Positions 27,170-52,705 of a stretch of 64,000 nt of DNA are shown piece by piece. The DNA comes from Bacteroidia bacterium (GTDB lineage Bacteria > Bacteroidota > Bacteroidia > CAILMK01 > JBBDIG01). Position numbers and translations under genes: made by a program. The stretch is taken from the NCBI GenBank assembly GCA_040880525.1, contig JBBDIG010000026.1:1-64000 (forward strand). The letters run 5' to 3'. The notes beneath the pieces were generated by a model that made no database searches, was not told the origin of the DNA, and worked only from the letters and a program-made list of their open reading frames with translations. Positions within the stretch are counted from its first letter, which is position 1. Every line of letters begins with the position of its first letter.

Positions 27170-27712
27170 TTGTTGGAGCTTCAAGATTCAGGAACTGATA
27201 CAGCCGGAAAGGCAAGCAGGAATGCAGAATTCTTCCGTTTGTATAAGCCGCTTCACAGTAAAGTAGAGAAGTACGTTTTGGCCACAACAGGCAATGAGAA
27301 TGATGCACGGGAAATATTGGCCCAAACCCTCCTGGCAGCAGTGCAGGGCTTTCCAGGATTGCGGAACAGGGCGGCCATATTAGGTTTTCTGATTGGGATT
27401 GCTTCCAGGGTGCGAATGAAGTATTACCGGGAGGCAAGAAAAACATCGGGCCTTGAGGAAGTGACGGCCAGGAATGAACAGAGTGCTGAGGAGCCTTCTG
27501 CAGGAGTGGACGTCCATATCCTCTCAGAGGCACTCGACCAGCTTTCGGAAAAACAGAAGGACGCAATAGTGCTTTTTGAGATCTCTGGTTTTTCAATAAA
27601 AGAGATTGCAGAAATCCAGAACTGTGGCCTTTCGGCTGTGAAATCGCGGCTGGTAAGAGGCCGGGAAAAATTGAGACAGATATTGACAGACAAAGAAACC
27701 AATCGAAGATAG
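27170..27712 (+). CDS. RNA polymerase ECF-type sigma factor
   Basis: The 180-residue protein begins at TTG. It has a diverged region 2 (residues about 20-85, including KYVLATTGNENDAREILAQT) and a clear region 4 (EALDQLSEKQKDAIVLFEIS then GFSIKEIAEIQNCGLSAVKSRLVRGREKLRQIL). The helix-turn-helix spans roughly residues 140-165. ECF factors are usually held by a membrane anti-sigma factor. The next gene starts 3 nt later and encodes a single-pass membrane protein, which fits that role. The signal is not evident. Confidence 0.88.
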   Translation: MLELQDSGTDTAGKASRNAEFFRLYKPLHSKVEKYVLATTGNENDAREILAQTLLAAVQGFPGLRNRAAILGFLIGIASRVRMKYYREARKTSGLEEVTARNEQSAEEPSAGVDVHILSEALDQLSEKQKDAIVLFEISGFSIKEIAEIQNCGLSAVKSRLVRGREKLRQILTDKETNRR

Positions 27713-33956: not shown

Positions 33957-36605
33957 GTGCGAAATATCCTTCTGATCGTATGTTACGTCTTTTTGATTGG
34001 CCTTCCGGCTGATGCAGCTTCCTTGCGGGGTTTAGTAACGGATACTTCAGGCGCGCCCATTCCCTATGCGAACGTGTACCTGAAGAACAATACCCAGGGA
34101 ACCTCCTGTGATGCTTCTGGAAATTATTTGCTGAACCTGCGGGCCGGTGAGCACGCAGTAGTTTTTAGTGCAGTAGGCTATCGGCAGCATGAGGAGACGG
34201 TTTTCCTGGCAGAAGGGCAGACGCTGGTGCTGAACGTACAGTTGGAGGAATCGGCACTGAACCTGGGAGAGGCTGTGGTAACTGCAGCGTATGTGGACCG
34301 CGGTAAAGAGATCATGCGGCTGGCCCGGAAAAAGAGCCGGAATGATTTTGACGCTGTGGAGAATTACCGCTGCCAGACCTATCAGAAAATAACGGTGGAA
34401 ATAAAAAAACCCGAACCTGCCGAAAAAGCAGAAGAAGATACCACCGAAACCGCAGTTGAGGATAATAATAAGAAAGAGGAAAAAGAGGAAAAGGACGAGA
34501 AGGACGAGAAGGAGAAAAAGAAAAAGAAGAAAGAGAAGGAGCCTACCGTGATGGACCGCGCAAGAGCCCAATTGAGTAAGATTAGGAAGATGCGGCTGAT
34601 TGAATCAGTGGAGGAAACAAATTACCAGAAACCGGGAAAATATAAGGTTATAACGCAAGCCTGGAATGATTTCTCGGATGTGATGCCAGCTTATCGTGGC
34701 AGGAGCGTAAGCGTAGGGTTTAGCTATGGGGAGCCTGATATAGCAGGGGTTGGCCGGCAGTACGAAGATCCTTACCTCATCACTTTTAAACCGTGGAGTG
34801 CGGATTTTAACTTTTCGCGAAACCTTATCCATGCGCCCCTGCTGAGCCAAAAACCACTGCTATCTCCCCTGGCGGCTACGGCTGAGCTCAGCTACAGGTT
34901 CAGCCTTGATTCTTCGTTTATTGACAGCAACGGAAAAAAGATTTACAAAATCAACGTTATCCCGCTTTTTCCCGGTGAGGCTTTGTTCTCGGGTTTCATG
35001 CTCGTGGAAGATTCCACCTGGATGTTGCAGGAAGTGGATTTTTCCATTAATCCGGAAGCACTGATGTATTGCCGGGATTTTCGCATTAAGCAGCAATATG
35101 CAGCCTTGCAGTCGGGAATATCCATGCCCGTGAGTCGTGAATTCATTTATACCATAAAGGACGGAAGCGATTTGAGAAAAGGCCATACACTGGTAACTCA
35201 CACTGATTATGAACTGAATACCGTATTTCCGCCCCGCTTTTTTAATAATGAGATACAGGCTTATGATGTTACGGCTTTTGACAAAGATTCCGCCTGGTGG
35301 AAAGATGTAAGACCCATTTCGCTGCGAGCCAATGAGATTGAGTATATCGCAGAAACGGACAGCTCACGGGACTATTTGATCAGCGATGCTTTCCTTGATT
35401 CGCTGGATGCAGAAATAAATAAGCTTGATATATGGGATTTCCTTTTAATGGGAATTTATCACCAGAACCACAGGAAGGGCATCCGCTACAATATTGATCC
35501 GCTGGTGGCGCAACTCAATCCGTTCGGCATAGGTGGCTACCGGCACAGGCTGGGCGGAGGTTTCAGCAAAGAATTCGAGAATGATTTCCTGCTGGAAACC
35601 CGCGGGTTCGTGGATTATGGTTTTGCGAACAAGGATGTGAAAGGAAAGCTTGGAGCCGGACTGACTTATGTGCCGCTCAAGTTTGTTCGTACCTATATTG
35701 ATGTTGGCGATAACTATGAAGTGGTAAACAACTATGCATCGCTGAGCACACTATTTAGCCGGGCGAATTATGTGCGGTCACGCAGCATCAGCGTTGCGCA
35801 GCGAATGGAAATAGTGAACGGGCTTTTCGGTGAAGTTACGCTGGAATATGGACGGATGGATCCGCTGACGAATATGCAGCATGACGAATGGTCAGAGGTT
35901 TTGTATGGAGATTTAAATGAACCGGTGGATTTCAAATCCTACAGAAAATCGGAGGTGAGCATTCAGTTGAAATACCGGCCCGGCCAGAAGTATATGATCA
36001 AGCGGAATAAAAAGATCATTACCGGCTCTGATTACCCGGAGTTTTCGCTCCGCTACCGGAAAGGGATAAATGGCCTGTTCCAAAGCGAGGTGAATTTTGA
36101 TTATCTGGAAGCCGGGGTAAACCATGAAGTGCAATTAAAGCGTTTTGGGTTTGGCACCTGGAATTTCCTGGCCGGTACATTCCTGAATAAAAAGAGCCTG
36201 CGCGTAATAGAATACCGGTATTTCCGCGGATCGGATCCATACCTCTTCTCCAATCCACTCACCTCGTTTCAGTTGCTCGGGCCAACGCTGAGCGCCTCCG
36301 GGCCGTTTCTGCGGCTCAACGGTATTTTTCATGACCAGGGTTATCTCTTCAATAAAGTTCCGTTGCTGAACAAAGCGCACCTAGGTCTTGCCGGTGGCGC
36401 TGGCTTCCTGGCTATTCCGGAGCAAAATGATTTCCGGCACGGAGAAATATTTGGCGGCCTGGAATGGATCTTCCGGATTAAGAAGCAATTATTCCGTGCG
36501 GGTTTCTATGCCGTTACATCTGAAAATACCATCGCACTCCCGCAACTCACCTGGAAATTCGGATTCTCCTTTTACAATGATTACAGAAGGAAGTGGGATT
36601 ATTAG
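33957..36605 (+). CDS. DUF5686 and carboxypeptidase-regulatory-like domain outer-membrane protein
   Basis: The 882-residue protein (GTG start) has a signal peptide followed by a carboxypeptidase-regulatory-like domain (residues about 22-105, LRGLVTDTSGAPIPYANVYL, with a CDASGNYLLNL turn). A DUF5686 region and a barrel-like C-terminus follow, closing in NDYRRKWDY. Between residues about 151 and 196 there is a nearly pure Lys/Glu/Asp stretch. Proteins of this architecture occur widely in Bacteroidota and are thought to be outer-membrane proteins without TonB boxes. The gene is alone on its strand and has a weak -7 match (TAAATTTA at 33943). Confidence 0.82.
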   Translation: MRNILLIVCYVFLIGLPADAASLRGLVTDTSGAPIPYANVYLKNNTQGTSCDASGNYLLNLRAGEHAVVFSAVGYRQHEETVFLAEGQTLVLNVQLEESALNLGEAVVTAAYVDRGKEIMRLARKKSRNDFDAVENYRCQTYQKITVEIKKPEPAEKAEEDTTETAVEDNNKKEEKEEKDEKDEKEKKKKKKEKEPTVMDRARAQLSKIRKMRLIESVEETNYQKPGKYKVITQAWNDFSDVMPAYRGRSVSVGFSYGEPDIAGVGRQYEDPYLITFKPWSADFNFSRNLIHAPLLSQKPLLSPLAATAELSYRFSLDSSFIDSNGKKIYKINVIPLFPGEALFSGFMLVEDSTWMLQEVDFSINPEALMYCRDFRIKQQYAALQSGISMPVSREFIYTIKDGSDLRKGHTLVTHTDYELNTVFPPRFFNNEIQAYDVTAFDKDSAWWKDVRPISLRANEIEYIAETDSSRDYLISDAFLDSLDAEINKLDIWDFLLMGIYHQNHRKGIRYNIDPLVAQLNPFGIGGYRHRLGGGFSKEFENDFLLETRGFVDYGFANKDVKGKLGAGLTYVPLKFVRTYIDVGDNYEVVNNYASLSTLFSRANYVRSRSISVAQRMEIVNGLFGEVTLEYGRMDPLTNMQHDEWSEVLYGDLNEPVDFKSYRKSEVSIQLKYRPGQKYMIKRNKKIITGSDYPEFSLRYRKGINGLFQSEVNFDYLEAGVNHEVQLKRFGFGTWNFLAGTFLNKKSLRVIEYRYFRGSDPYLFSNPLTSFQLLGPTLSASGPFLRLNGIFHDQGYLFNKVPLLNKAHLGLAGGAGFLAIPEQNDFRHGEIFGGLEWIFRIKKQLFRAGFYAVTSENTIALPQLTWKFGFSFYNDYRRKWDY

Positions 36606-45747: not shown

Positions 45748-46950
45748 TTAAGGCAGAAAAATATCACATCCCCCGGTGCAGTCGCTGCTGGAGTTGAGCC
45801 CATTATTCTCGAAAGTATTACTGCTCAAAAGATCAACAATAGTTCCCGGGATGATGGTGGTGCCAGCTTCAACATATAGTCCCCAGCCGCCACTCATTCT
45901 TACCAGGCTGTTCTGCAGTTCGAGTTGCCCATTGTTGCTGTTCTGCAGCCAAATGCTGGAATACTCATAGGTACTGCTTCCGCCACCGTGGGCCACCTCT
46001 ACATAGTGAAATTTGTTATGCGGATTATTGGAGTCAAATTCTATCACGTCCCAATAACTGTCCGTTTCCACTTCTCCGAGAAACCTGATCATATTCCCGT
46101 CAGTTCCCACACAATTCAACGATCCATCGGAATGTACTTCAATGCTGGCCGAGCTTCCCATCCGAAATGTGGTGCCGGGAGACACTATCACATCTGCTTC
46201 AATATCGAAATTGCCATCCATCAGGAAAGCAGCATTGGTTGCAGGAACGGTGGTGGTTGAGGCAAAGGTGCTTCCGCCTACGAGGATAAACGATGCTTCA
46301 TTTTCGTTGTCGTAGTCGCTGGTTTCATCAAGACTGCCAATGTGGTTGGCGAAAATTGCCAGGCCCTCAGCGCCATTCGCAGAAAAAGTATTATTCGAAA
46401 ATGCGGAGAATTCAGTTCCTGATTCTGCATATAATCCATGACCCATGCTGCCGGTGAAGGTGGTGTTATCAATGCCTACCTGTGCATTGTTGCTGTTCTG
46501 CAACCAGACCATACTGTTTTTATAAGTAACGCTGCCTCCGCCATATTCTATGCGGCAGTGGCTGAGCAGATTCTCAGGATTATTGGAATTGAATTCAAGT
46601 ACGTCCCAATATCCTGCTGTGGCCTGAACACCGGTAAACACCACCGGCTCCGTAGCAGATCCTGCGGCATGGAGTGAGCCGCTGGACCGTACCTCTACAC
46701 TGACGCCCGATTCCATCTCAATGCGCACACCTTCGGCAATCACCAGCGCAGCATCTACATTAATATTATTCGCGATGATATAATCAGGTTCATCCGGGTT
46801 GTCAACGCGGTTCTCCCAGGTTGTATTGGTGGTAACATCATCCTCAATTCTCATAGCCTGTGTGGGGTCCTCATCAGTTGGATCAGGATCGTCTTTTTTA
46901 CAGGAAGATACCATTAGAAGTACTGTGAATAAATAAATTAACCTTTTCAT
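45748..46950 (-). CDS. Lipoprotein with two tandem beta-helix-like domains
   Basis: The 400-residue protein starts with a lipoprotein signal (MKRLIYLFTVLLMVSSCKK; Cys17). Two tandem copies of a 150-165-residue unit follow, each with VSVEVRSSGSLHAAG or a similar strand, the phrase YWDVLEFNSNNP or YWDVIEFDSNNP, a GGGS-turn and WLQNSNN. The layout fits a right-handed parallel beta-helix, as in many surface polysaccharide-binding or cleaving proteins. No catalytic residues are evident, so a binding role is likely. It is monocistronic and has a strong terminator. The exact ligand is unknown. Confidence 0.78.
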   Translation of the reverse strand: MKRLIYLFTVLLMVSSCKKDDPDPTDEDPTQAMRIEDDVTTNTTWENRVDNPDEPDYIIANNINVDAALVIAEGVRIEMESGVSVEVRSSGSLHAAGSATEPVVFTGVQATAGYWDVLEFNSNNPENLLSHCRIEYGGGSVTYKNSMVWLQNSNNAQVGIDNTTFTGSMGHGLYAESGTEFSAFSNNTFSANGAEGLAIFANHIGSLDETSDYDNENEASFILVGGSTFASTTTVPATNAAFLMDGNFDIEADVIVSPGTTFRMGSSASIEVHSDGSLNCVGTDGNMIRFLGEVETDSYWDVIEFDSNNPHNKFHYVEVAHGGGSSTYEYSSIWLQNSNNGQLELQNSLVRMSGGWGLYVEAGTTIIPGTIVDLLSSNTFENNGLNSSSDCTGGCDIFLP

Positions 46951-49026: not shown

Positions 49027-50987
49027 TTATAAGCGTAAACCGGCATGCCAGCCTATCCACATTTGCACTTGCGTCCGGTTGCCGCTCCTTTCATAAAAAG
49101 GCGAACGTGCCCATCGCGAGGCAAACCGTCCATCATCATTTTGGTATTGAGAGACGAGTACATTGAGGGCCGGGCCTGCATTCACCACGAGTTGGTTGGT
49201 GATATAAAAATTTAGGTTGGTATTGCAGCGGCTCAACAAGTTCAGGGCATCCAGCCATTCCTTGCGTTCATTCAGGTGATTAGCTGTGACGTCCAGATTT
49301 AGTGCCCATCGTTTTGATAATTTGAATTCAGAACCAAATCCGTAGCCGAAGCTCCAGGCGTTGTACCAGGGATGGACAAATGAATCGGTGCTGATGGTGA
49401 GGCCGGCTGTAATAATATTGTAGAAATGCCGGCTCCCCCGGTTTTGAAAGCAAGATTGGAGTGCATCACATCATTCGTAAAGAGTTCAAATTCATGGAAG
49501 CCGTGGCGTGAAAAGCTCAGGAAACCGAGGGCAAGACCTGCCGTGCTATCGCTGAGGTTGAGGAAACCTATCTGCATCCCGGATACTTTTCTCGCATAAT
49601 TAACAAATCCGCTTACCTGCGTTCCAGCTACATCTTTGGCGGCAATATTTGCAAACCCGCTTACCTGTACACCGGCTACATCTTTGGAGGCAATATTCGC
49701 AAATCCACTAACCTGCACACCGGCCACATCACCTGAAGCCACATTGCTGAAACCTGCTATCTGTGCTCCCTGAATTTTTCTTCCATAGTTGAAAAAGCCA
49801 CTGGCCTGGCAGAAATTCACATCCTTAGCGGCAATATTGGAAAATCCGGAAACCTGCATTCCGTCCACGTCCTGTGTGCTGACATTGGAGAACCCGGCTG
49901 CCTGCACGCCTGTGATCTTTCCCTTTACAACATTTGAAAAACCTGCGGCCTGAAGCCCGCGAATGGTATCGAGCGTTACGTTGCTGAAACCTGCTGCCTG
50001 CACCCCGGAAAATGACCCGCGCAGATTATTGAAGAATCCTGCGGCCTGCAAACCGAGCAATCGCCCGCCTACCACGTTCCCAAATCCGGCTGCCTGCACT
50101 CCCGTAACGTGCTGTCGCACAATGTTTAGAAAACCGCCAGCCTCCACTCCTTTGACCGCGAAGGAGTAGCCGGCCAGCACATTAATGGAAAGGTCGTTTT
50201 CCAGAGATCCGCTCATTAGGCTGTTGGTGCTGATGCCGGGCAGGAAGGAAATCTGTATCGGCACATTATTCAGGAGCGAAAGCATATTGCGCGAGTGTTG
50301 CATTTGACGGTCAGGCACAATCAGCTTTACTATTCTGACATCCTCTACGGCCTTTATCGGTGCCATATCTTCCGGTGCAACCATGCGAAGTTCAATGCGG
50401 GACAAGGAATCCTGAGGGAGCAGCTTTACGTTCAGATCTTTCCGGCTTTCGGGTTTTACCACCAAAAGCGTATCAAAGTAAGCCCGCTTGCTCACGCCCA
50501 GTCCTAAAAATTCTTTTTCGGTAGAAACGGTGAGTTCGTAAAAGCCGGAACGATCAGTAAGCGCCACATTTTTCCCATCTATATCATACACTGTAGCATG
50601 TGGAATGCGCTCTCCGGTGCGGCTGTTCTCTATATATCCCGAAATGATATAGCGGCTTTTTTCCTGAGCAAATGACCGGACCGGCAGCAAGATGAGATGG
50701 CTTCCGCTGACCCGGTACTGCATTGGCCGTTTCAGCAATGCATCCAGTACCAGCTTTACTGGCTGCCCTGTAACGGATAACGAAACCGGGCTGTCCAGCG
50801 GCAGCTCGGCCGGATTGTAGGAAAAGCTAAATAGTCCCTGCAATTCAGTGCTCTGCAGCGCCTGCTTCAATGGCAGGTTGCTGATTTCCAGTGTAATCTT
50901 CCGTTCCAGAATTGGTTCCTGAGCATTGAGAACAGATGCAGTTCCGAGCAGAAAGAAGAGAAGGGAGTTGAGGAGGTGAGATTTCAT
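49027..50987 (-). pseudogene. STN/carboxypeptidase-regulatory protein with 16-residue repeats and barrel end, frameshifted
   Basis: Starting at 50987 (7 nt past the FecR stop) gives a signal peptide (MKSHLLNSLLFFLLGTASVLNA), an STN domain (about residues 23-95), a carboxypeptidase-regulatory-like domain (about 105-185), then twelve to thirteen 16-residue repeats of the form GVQVSGFANIASKDVA. The frame as read stops at 49299, but a one-base change in the run of five C at 49435-49439 (plus strand) opens a frame that continues in good coding sequence (FYNIITAGLTISTD onward) to a stop at 49027 and ends MWIGWHAGLRL like a barrel strand. Without the shift the product would have about 653 residues. 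The repeats resemble LA_2272-type surface repeats. STN domains usually talk to FecR, so this is probably the receptor of the FecI/FecR pair. Sequencing error is a possible cause of the shift. Confidence 0.75.
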
Positions 50988-50991
50988 GGTT

Positions 50992-52041
50992 TTAATGGCA
51001 ACCTTTTCCGTCAAGCAGAATTTGATTGGATCCGGAAATTACTTGCAACTCCAGTGTCAGTGCAATTACACGCAATACATCCGGCAGAGAATCGTCCCGG
51101 AAAGTGGTGGTGAGCCTGCAATCTGCCAGTGAATCGTTTTGCAGGCTGATGTTGCTGCCGTAGGCATGGTTCAGGTCTTTCACAACTTCGGCCAGCGACA
51201 TATTTTCGAATACGAGTTTCCCGGTGTTCCAGAACAGATCATTTTCGGTCAGCCTGCCCCCTTTTTCAACCTTGCCTGTTTTACGGTCGTAGATTCCGGT
51301 TTCACCTGCTTTCAGCAGCACGAAAAGTGTATCAGCATTAAGAGATGAAAGCTTAACAACGCCTTCAGCCACCTGAACCTCCACCCGTTCATTTTTTGCA
51401 TCAACATTAAAAGCCGTTCCCAGAACGGTGATAAGCGCTTGATCCGCTTCAATTATAAAAGGTTTGTTTGCATCAGGTTGCACCTCAAAATATGCTTCTC
51501 CCTTTAAGCTCACTTTGCGCTGGTTCCCGGCAAATTCAGCCGGGTAGGTGAGCGAAGAATTTGCATTTATGGCAACAGCAGAGCCGTCAGGGAGCGTTTT
51601 CTCCACTTTGCTTGATGTGGCCGTCAGCGTAATTGGAGCAGCGGTGGGTTGAGAAATAAGGTAAATAAGTACCGCAATTCCGGCCAGCAGCGTAACGGAA
51701 GCTGCAATCCACCAGGTTCTGCGCGATCGATGCCGGGAGATTTCCTGAGCCACTTTCTCGCTGGGTTGTGAAGATCCAAGCTTGCGAATGTTGCTGCCGC
51801 CCTCAGAAGCCTTTATCCGCAAATCCAGCTTGAGCCAGGCAGCATCGGTATTAAATTGGGGGCCGGAAGAAACATTATGTGATTTTTCCCAAATGATCAA
51901 TGAGCGTTCATACTGCCTTCTTCTCTGGTCAGATACGGCAATCTCCTTCTCAAAAAGGATTTGCTCAGCAGGGGTTGCTTCTCCGGCTACAACTTTAGAC
52001 AGCAGTTCTTCAAACTCAATATTTTCAAAACAATCATTCAT
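50992..52041 (-). CDS. fecR: FecR-family anti-sigma factor
   Basis: The 349-residue protein has a cytoplasmic start, one transmembrane helix (about residues 110-130), a FecR domain (TLPDGSAVAINANSSLTYPAEF then GEAYFEVQPDANKPFIIEA) and a C-terminal DUF4974 domain (LVFENMSLAEVVKDLNHAYGSNI). FecR holds its ECF sigma factor and releases it when the receptor's STN domain signals. It lies 57 nt after the sigma factor gene, and the STN/repeat protein gene starts 4 nt after its stop, so the three form one signalling operon. Confidence 0.93.
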   Translation of the reverse strand: MNDCFENIEFEELLSKVVAGEATPAEQILFEKEIAVSDQRRRQYERSLIIWEKSHNVSSGPQFNTDAAWLKLDLRIKASEGGSNIRKLGSSQPSEKVAQEISRHRSRRTWWIAASVTLLAGIAVLIYLISQPTAAPITLTATSSKVEKTLPDGSAVAINANSSLTYPAEFAGNQRKVSLKGEAYFEVQPDANKPFIIEADQALITVLGTAFNVDAKNERVEVQVAEGVVKLSSLNADTLFVLLKAGETGIYDRKTGKVEKGGRLTENDLFWNTGKLVFENMSLAEVVKDLNHAYGSNISLQNDSLADCRLTTTFRDDSLPDVLRVIALTLELQVISGSNQILLDGKGCH

Positions 52042-52097
52042 TCAAATCTTCTTTACCGCCTCTATTTATCTTAAAGACAATTGAAAACTGGCTAACC

Positions 52098-52676
52098 CTA
52101 CAGCGTTATGATTTTTTTAATCCATAAAAGAAAAAGGGCCACAAATGGAAGATAGTCTGCAAGGCGCTGCCTCATGTGTTTCAGCGATTTGCTAATGTAG
52201 CTTTCCACTGTTTTTACGGAGATGCCCATTTCGTCAGCAATTTGCGAATATTTGAGGCCTTCGGTCCGGCTGAGTTCGAATGCCTGCCGCTGGTTTTCCG
52301 GCAATGCTCTTATGGCTTCCCGGATGCGCACTTCCAGTTCATGGTCAGCGATCTCCTCTGTCGGCATTTCGCCAACCTGCTGATCTGCCTGATATTTCTG
52401 TCGAACCTTCAAATGTTTCAGATGATTGAGGCAGCTATTATGCACCGCACGGTAGAGATAGGATTTTTCCGAAGTTTCAATGTTCAGTTCCCCGCGTTTT
52501 TCCCAAATACGGAAAAAGACATCCTGTACTATTTCCTCTGACTGGGCGGGTTCTTTCAGGATTTTCAGAGCATACTGGCACAGTGGCTCATAAAACTTCC
52601 GGAAAAGCTGCTCAAACACCTGCTTGTTGCCAGCGCTGATCTGCTGAAAAAGTGGGGTAGAAGTGACGGTTTGCAA
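52098..52676 (-). CDS. FecI-type ECF sigma factor
   Basis: No ATG is available near the 5' end. The TTG at 52676 was chosen because the -7 box lies 22-29 nt before it; the longest frame begins at a TTG at 52700 inside that box. The 192-residue protein has region 2 (RKFYEPLCQYALKILKEPAQ, then SEEIVQDVFFRIWEKRGEL) and region 4 (ALPENQRQAFELSRTEGLKY, SQIADEMGISVKTVESYISK). It likely directs transcription of genes controlled through fecR and the STN protein downstream. An autoregulated operon is plausible, but the promoter here is of the housekeeping type. Confidence 0.9.
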   Translation of the reverse strand: MQTVTSTPLFQQISAGNKQVFEQLFRKFYEPLCQYALKILKEPAQSEEIVQDVFFRIWEKRGELNIETSEKSYLYRAVHNSCLNHLKHLKVRQKYQADQQVGEMPTEEIADHELEVRIREAIRALPENQRQAFELSRTEGLKYSQIADEMGISVKTVESYISKSLKHMRQRLADYLPFVALFLLWIKKIITL

Positions 52677-52697
52677 GTTGATTCTGAAAAAGGGCTG

Positions 52698-52705
52698 CAA
52701 AGGTA
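52698..52705 (-). promoter_or_regulatory. -7 box (TACCTTTG) of the FecI operon
   Basis: On the minus strand TACCTTTG fits TAnnTTTG and lies 21 nt before the TTG start at 52676. It overlaps the extended start at 52700, which argues against that start. Confidence 0.5.

Follow-up and report, generated by a model that had tools for sequence, protein, structure and literature searches.

FecR signalling is generally portrayed as linked to TonB-dependent import. The window analysed here, a stretch of 64,000 nucleotides from a Bacteroidia bacterium, carries a sigma-fecR pair followed by a gene for an exported repeat protein, and it therefore raises the question whether a FecI/FecR system can use a receptor that is not itself a transporter. 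We consider it likely that this is the case, and that the locus is a FecI/FecR surface-signalling operon whose receptor combines an STN domain with LA_2272 repeats (STN-LA) and is not a TonB-dependent transporter.

The three genes lie on the reverse strand in the order sigma factor, fecR, STN protein, as the preliminary description had stated. The sigma gene (52098-52700) encodes a FecI-like ECF sigma factor that matched TIGR02985 at 5e-50 (169.8 bits, cut-off 126.4) and was the only protein of the window genome above that cut-off. Its start codon is uncertain, with no ATG and a frame that is open to 52763. Unlinked to the operon, the forward strand at 27227-27685 encodes another protein with remote ECF sigma similarity (TIGR02985, 47.7 bits). 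The FecR anti-sigma factor (50992-52041, reverse strand) contains one hydrophobic, transmembrane-like segment and matched both FecR (PF04773, 1e-20, 74 bits) and FecR_C (PF16344, 7e-15, 55 bits) above cut-off. The receptor gene starts with an ATG at 50987, 4 nt past the fecR stop codon, and its in-frame part extends to a stop at 49299 on the same strand. Its product begins with a signal peptide read by eye (MKSHLLNSLLFFLLGTASVLNA, followed by QEP; 50922-50987), and profile matches place an STN domain, the periplasmic signalling domain, at 50682-50831 and a CarboxypepD_reg-like domain at 50454-50645. Taken alone, the window matches to STN (6e-4) and CarbopepD_reg_2 (4e-4) are both under the Pfam cut-offs. 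Among 11 aligned STN-LA members STN was matched in five and CarbopepD_reg_2 in all, and the STN matches in fusion proteins of relatives reach 1.6e-9. Profile searches against the PDB likewise aligned the two domains with solved STN and TonB-dependent receptor (TBDR) N-terminal domains; PilQ was matched at STN, together with a weaker match to the signalling domain of a pseudobactin receptor. The described GVQxxGFxN repeats of 16 residues were recovered as 13 LA_2272-type units (GxQxxGFxN, 15-16 residues each; 49557-50150), and the curated NCBIfam surface repeat NF047436 (LA_2272_repeat) scored 30.6 bits against a cut-off of 25. By sequence, the partner of fecR is a predicted exported protein with an N-terminal STN domain encoded directly next to fecR, one of the features of FecI/FecR surface signalling.

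What sets this protein apart is the part behind the STN domain. A plug with a complete barrel had been named beforehand as one outcome that would speak against the proposed reading; neither the Plug (PF07715) nor the TonB barrel (PF00593) was matched at E<=0.01 in any of the 11 aligned members. The claim of a FecI/FecR pair whose STN partner differs from a TonB-dependent transporter is thus borne out at the level of profiles. The window operon shares with the FecI/FecR/FecA and FoxI/FoxR/FoxA systems the FecI-type ECF sigma factor, the FecR and FecR_C domains, the STN domain on the exported partner and the fixed gene order. In contrast to FecA and FoxA, its partner contains neither plug nor TonB-dependent barrel, and sensing and transport reside on separate proteins. 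STN-bearing SusC-like receptors of Bacteroidota also have an N-terminal STN and CarbopepD_reg and adjoin sigma-fecR; they are proteins of 1100-1250 residues with plug and barrel, whereas STN-LA proteins comprise 550-720 residues and carry repeats. In some genomes such canonical STN proteins of 1100-1250 residues coexist with the STN-LA type at other fecIR loci. Also in the window, and unlinked to the operon, is a gene (33957-36605, forward strand) for a protein of 882 aa whose N-terminus resembles the CarbopepD_reg part of a TBDR.

The window copy of the receptor is interrupted. While the in-frame reading frame stops at 49299, the conserved C-terminus runs on in another frame to a stop codon at 49027-49029, and the family profile matched three segments in order (49641-50252, 8e-79; 49425-49730, 7e-38; 49030-49440, 1e-28). 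The frame break near 49440 cuts off the C-terminal 138 residues, including an outer-membrane-like segment in the displaced frame (49027-49440, reverse strand; OMP_b-brl, 1e-3). Hence, either the protein may not be made in the window organism or the assembly may be wrong. That the window receptor is a decaying pseudogene, the conserved system working only in relatives, would account for the separation of the two parts, but apart from the break both read through and show good conservation, and the sigma gene, fecR and the promoter are intact. Furthermore, a G run is located close to the break, the assembly is a draft of 60 contigs, and an error in base calling or assembly is no less likely. We therefore regard decay as rather unlikely. 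Intact STN-LA homologues of 550-720 residues are present in relatives.

We then considered the repeat domain. The same GxQxxGFxN repeat defines the LA_2272 family (NCBIfam NF047436), to which the VC2662 family (NF047437) is related. The Leptospira and Vibrio proteins that gave these families their names are described by models without STN, whereas the window repeats follow STN and CarbopepD_reg and are encoded behind sigma-fecR. Literature searches turned up neither an STN-LA_2272 receptor nor a function for LA_2272. The preliminary description had called the protein a repeat barrel and proposed a structure prediction. The repeats are confirmed and the barrel is not: AlphaFold2 predicted all-beta folds for the window and Microscilla sequences at low confidence (pLDDT 55.6 and 43.4), and we use these models no further than that. 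A Foldseek search with them gave no match. PDB profile scans, run once with the STN-LA alignment and once with only the repeat domain, returned matches only at STN/CarbopepD_reg, the repeats giving noise. Since odd and even repeat numbers both occur, one antiparallel barrel strand per repeat is disfavoured, although not decisively. Covariation between repeats revealed no visible antiparallel pairing, its diagonal signal being confounded by repeat homogenisation, and lag-1 and lag-2 repeat identities did not differ clearly in either direction. A C-terminal Phe is a feature of outer-membrane barrel sorting signals. It was found in 36 of 60 family members compared to 13% of open reading frames; the window copy ends in Leu. 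Together with the variable hydrophobic residues at alternate repeat positions, this favours an outer-membrane protein, and the signal peptide, the C-terminal signal of the relatives and the weak OMP_b-brl match (1e-3) suggest the same location. Elsewhere in the window, a lipoprotein-like 400-aa protein (45748-46950, reverse strand) has an internal duplication (SNNP...GGGS.TY...WLQNSNN, twice) and perhaps forms a beta-helix.

The preliminary description had also proposed to look for the gene order in other genomes. There, fecR was found directly upstream of the STN-LA fusion in 25 of 26 fusion-bearing relatives, which belong to over a dozen families within the class, and the sigma gene was present in 23. 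At loci with LA_2272 genes and no fusion, no such gene lay near fecR and, with the exception of a Microscilla fusion, none had a sigma gene nearby. Another locus (L069:5518-6824) encodes a tandem pair of adjacent LA_2272-like proteins of about 215 aa without STN. G369 carries an STN-LA gene (L065:5112-6875) that lacks an adjacent sigma/fecR and an exact copy of the promoter motif described below; this genome has nine FecR genes elsewhere. In ten genomes, the window genome included, the operon fecR is the sole fecR. A search of the window genome for STN (E<=10) recovered the window's own domain as best match (0.011), followed by noise. With a lone FecR, and in the window genome a lone STN, these genomes seem to lack an STN-bearing transporter that could act on this FecR. 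Three types of genes recur within four genes of the fusion: an LA_2272 gene without STN (8/26 relatives), a TBDR of one subfamily (10/26) and a DUF2807 head-GIN protein (10/26). The neighbouring TBDR comprises about 785 residues with CarbopepD_reg, plug and barrel and no STN, and sequence search found no nearest solved structure for it. The window genome encodes three unlinked relatives of this TBDR and one DUF2807 gene.

These genes share a predicted promoter with the operon. A bipartite motif, TAGGGGTA-N13-TTGTC, occurs 5' of the sigma, fecR, STN-less LA_2272, STN-less TBDR and DUF2807 genes; the aligned sites read (A/G)TAGGGGTA-N13-TTGTC(A/T)TA and mostly lie 40-76 bp 5' of the start codon. 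Shared 4+4 bipartite words were first sought blindly in upstream regions, and by the score used this search did no better than its shuffled null. The motif stood out among the overlapping matches of this search, was hence selected after looking, and was then validated on other genomes. Its core, GGGT-N15-TGTC, was first seen in G003 and G009 before STN-less LA genes (in G006 with one mismatch) and, in the window genome, before the DUF2807 gene and one TBDR gene. In 733 kb of loci it occurs 57 times, 36 of them just 5' of sigma, fecR, LA, TBDR or GIN genes, while only one of 514 other genes is preceded by it. With the four discovery genomes left out, 29 of 70 genes of these classes at STN-LA loci carry the motif compared to none of 165 others (Fisher p=3.8e-18). 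It was found at 1 of 31 LA genes of loci that lack STN-LA, and no exact copy was present at seven other FecR loci. The window site (GGGTTAGCCAGTTTTCAATTGTC; 52076-52098, reverse strand), an exact match outside the set that built the motif, lies 57 bp 5' of the fecR start and overlaps the sigma stop codon. Within 1.98 Mb, about half of the window genome, exact copies stand in promoter position before fecR, one TBDR gene (C16:14404-16542) and the sole DUF2807 gene (C27:28641-29180); this TBDR is the genome's best match to the neighbouring TBDR of relatives. Both genes are likely regulon members in trans. A weight matrix built without the sites of the window genome ranked them 2, 5 and 22, so that some background sites outrank them. 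This distribution would fit recognition by the operon's own sigma factor, which would then control its regulator, its receptor and a small set of outer-membrane genes. Compared to FecA and FoxA systems, the predicted promoter would drive fecR and the receptor and also an STN-less TBDR.

Since the TBDR carries the same promoter motif, the earlier statement that no transport is involved has to be narrowed: the receptor is no transporter, but a same-motif TBDR lies within four genes in 10 of 26 operons. Sensing sits apart from transport, yet a transporter probably belongs to the regulon. The TBDR could also be read in another way. STN-LA might be a partner subunit of the 785-residue TBDR, and TonB-driven transport would be signalled to FecR via the STN protein, leaving sensing coupled to transport and merely split over two polypeptides. 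Proximity and shared promoter are compatible with this, as are the CarbopepD_reg domain common to sensor and TBDR and the fact that in G003, G006 and G009 STN-less LA genes, too, are paired with this TBDR type. On the other hand, co-regulation by itself also accounts for the pairing, and the TBDR is absent nearby in 16 of 26 operons and unlinked in the window genome. We hold a partner subunit to be possible, but clearly less probable than a receptor that senses on its own.

The STN-less LA copies point to a further alternative. In the tree, the STN-less operonic LA copy of G024 is the sister of that genome's own STN-LA copy, and the STN-less copies of G165, G130 and G306 nest inside STN-LA clades; the tree, with many unresolved forks, does not establish a single origin of the fusion. 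From these placements we conclude that sensor and target can share the repeat domain and perhaps a ligand. They would also suit a receptor that senses outer-membrane assembly, STN-LA being a reporter copy of the sigma-controlled LA_2272 proteins that is triggered by their misassembly or shortage. However, a neighbouring STN-less LA gene is missing from 18 of 26 operons, and no such gene exists anywhere in the window genome, which makes assembly sensing improbable.

We therefore favour signalling by a non-transporting receptor. The STN-LA protein would be exported, its repeat and C-terminal part being lodged in the outer membrane or on it. From there the N-terminal STN domain would reach through the periplasm to FecR and touch the latter's STN-like C-terminal domain. 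Such a contact is known from PupB/PupR and FoxA/FoxR, in which the anti-sigma factor is bound at its STN-like C-terminus by an STN-type domain (PMC7186176, PMC11637429). Once the repeat part encounters its signal, either a ligand or a change in the state of the outer membrane, the STN-FecR contact would alter, FecR would be cleaved and the sigma factor freed; contact, proteolysis and release are modelled here on the Pseudomonas and E. coli systems. The freed sigma factor would use the bipartite promoter to transcribe fecR and the receptor gene, which closes a feedback loop, and also genes, adjacent or in trans, for STN-less LA_2272 proteins, STN-less TBDR and DUF2807 lipoprotein-like proteins. 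A sensor role of the LA repeat protein is supported by an uncultured Microscilla (L001:4542-7431), in which an ECF sigma gene overlaps the gene of a single LA_2272 repeat protein, placing the repeat domain directly behind the sigma factor. This protein has a short cytoplasmic start, a transmembrane-like segment, a basic/polar linker of about 330 residues and the LA_2272 repeats; its N-terminus matched no Pfam family, and its position suggests an anti-sigma role.

STN domains of Bacteroidota may connect FecR to still other modules. In G042, the genome of one relative, four further sigma-fecR pairs (L115-L118, on contigs C421, C294, C98 and C221) are followed by STN proteins of 458-483 residues. 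Each of these has a long Pro/Glu/Lys-rich linker, ends in a small barrel-like part, matched by OMP_b-brl_2 in three of the four, and is itself followed by a large secreted-looking protein. At a fifth locus (L119:1501-3906) the sigma-fecR partner is an 801-aa protein with STN, CarbopepD_reg and ankyrin repeats. These loci suggest that STN is a portable adaptor linking FecR to non-TonB modules such as LA_2272, OMP_b-brl_2 barrels and ankyrin repeats, an idea toward which we lean slightly.

Judged from these predictions, the STN-LA operon is a new variant of FecIR cell-surface signalling, and an STN receptor that is not a transporter would separate sensing from transport. The Leptospira FecI/FecR-like pair LIC_12757/LIC_12756 has no known TonB receptor that carries an N-terminal signalling extension (PMC12155086). 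Like the window operon, this pair is a FecIR system without a known signalling TonB receptor; no STN-LA_2272 partner has been reported for it. The STN-LA type could explain FecR in genomes that lack STN-bearing TonB receptors, a problem brought up for Leptospira (PMC12155086). The LA_2272 repeats, an uncharacterised family, thereby gain a first functional setting, and the promoter motif names the probable regulon, namely the repeat protein, a TonB receptor, a DUF2807 protein and the operon itself. If STN is indeed a portable adaptor in Bacteroidota, surface signalling would be a general means of outer-membrane sensing that can do without a TonB transporter as receptor, with the LA_2272 type as a branch that has its own dedicated promoter code.
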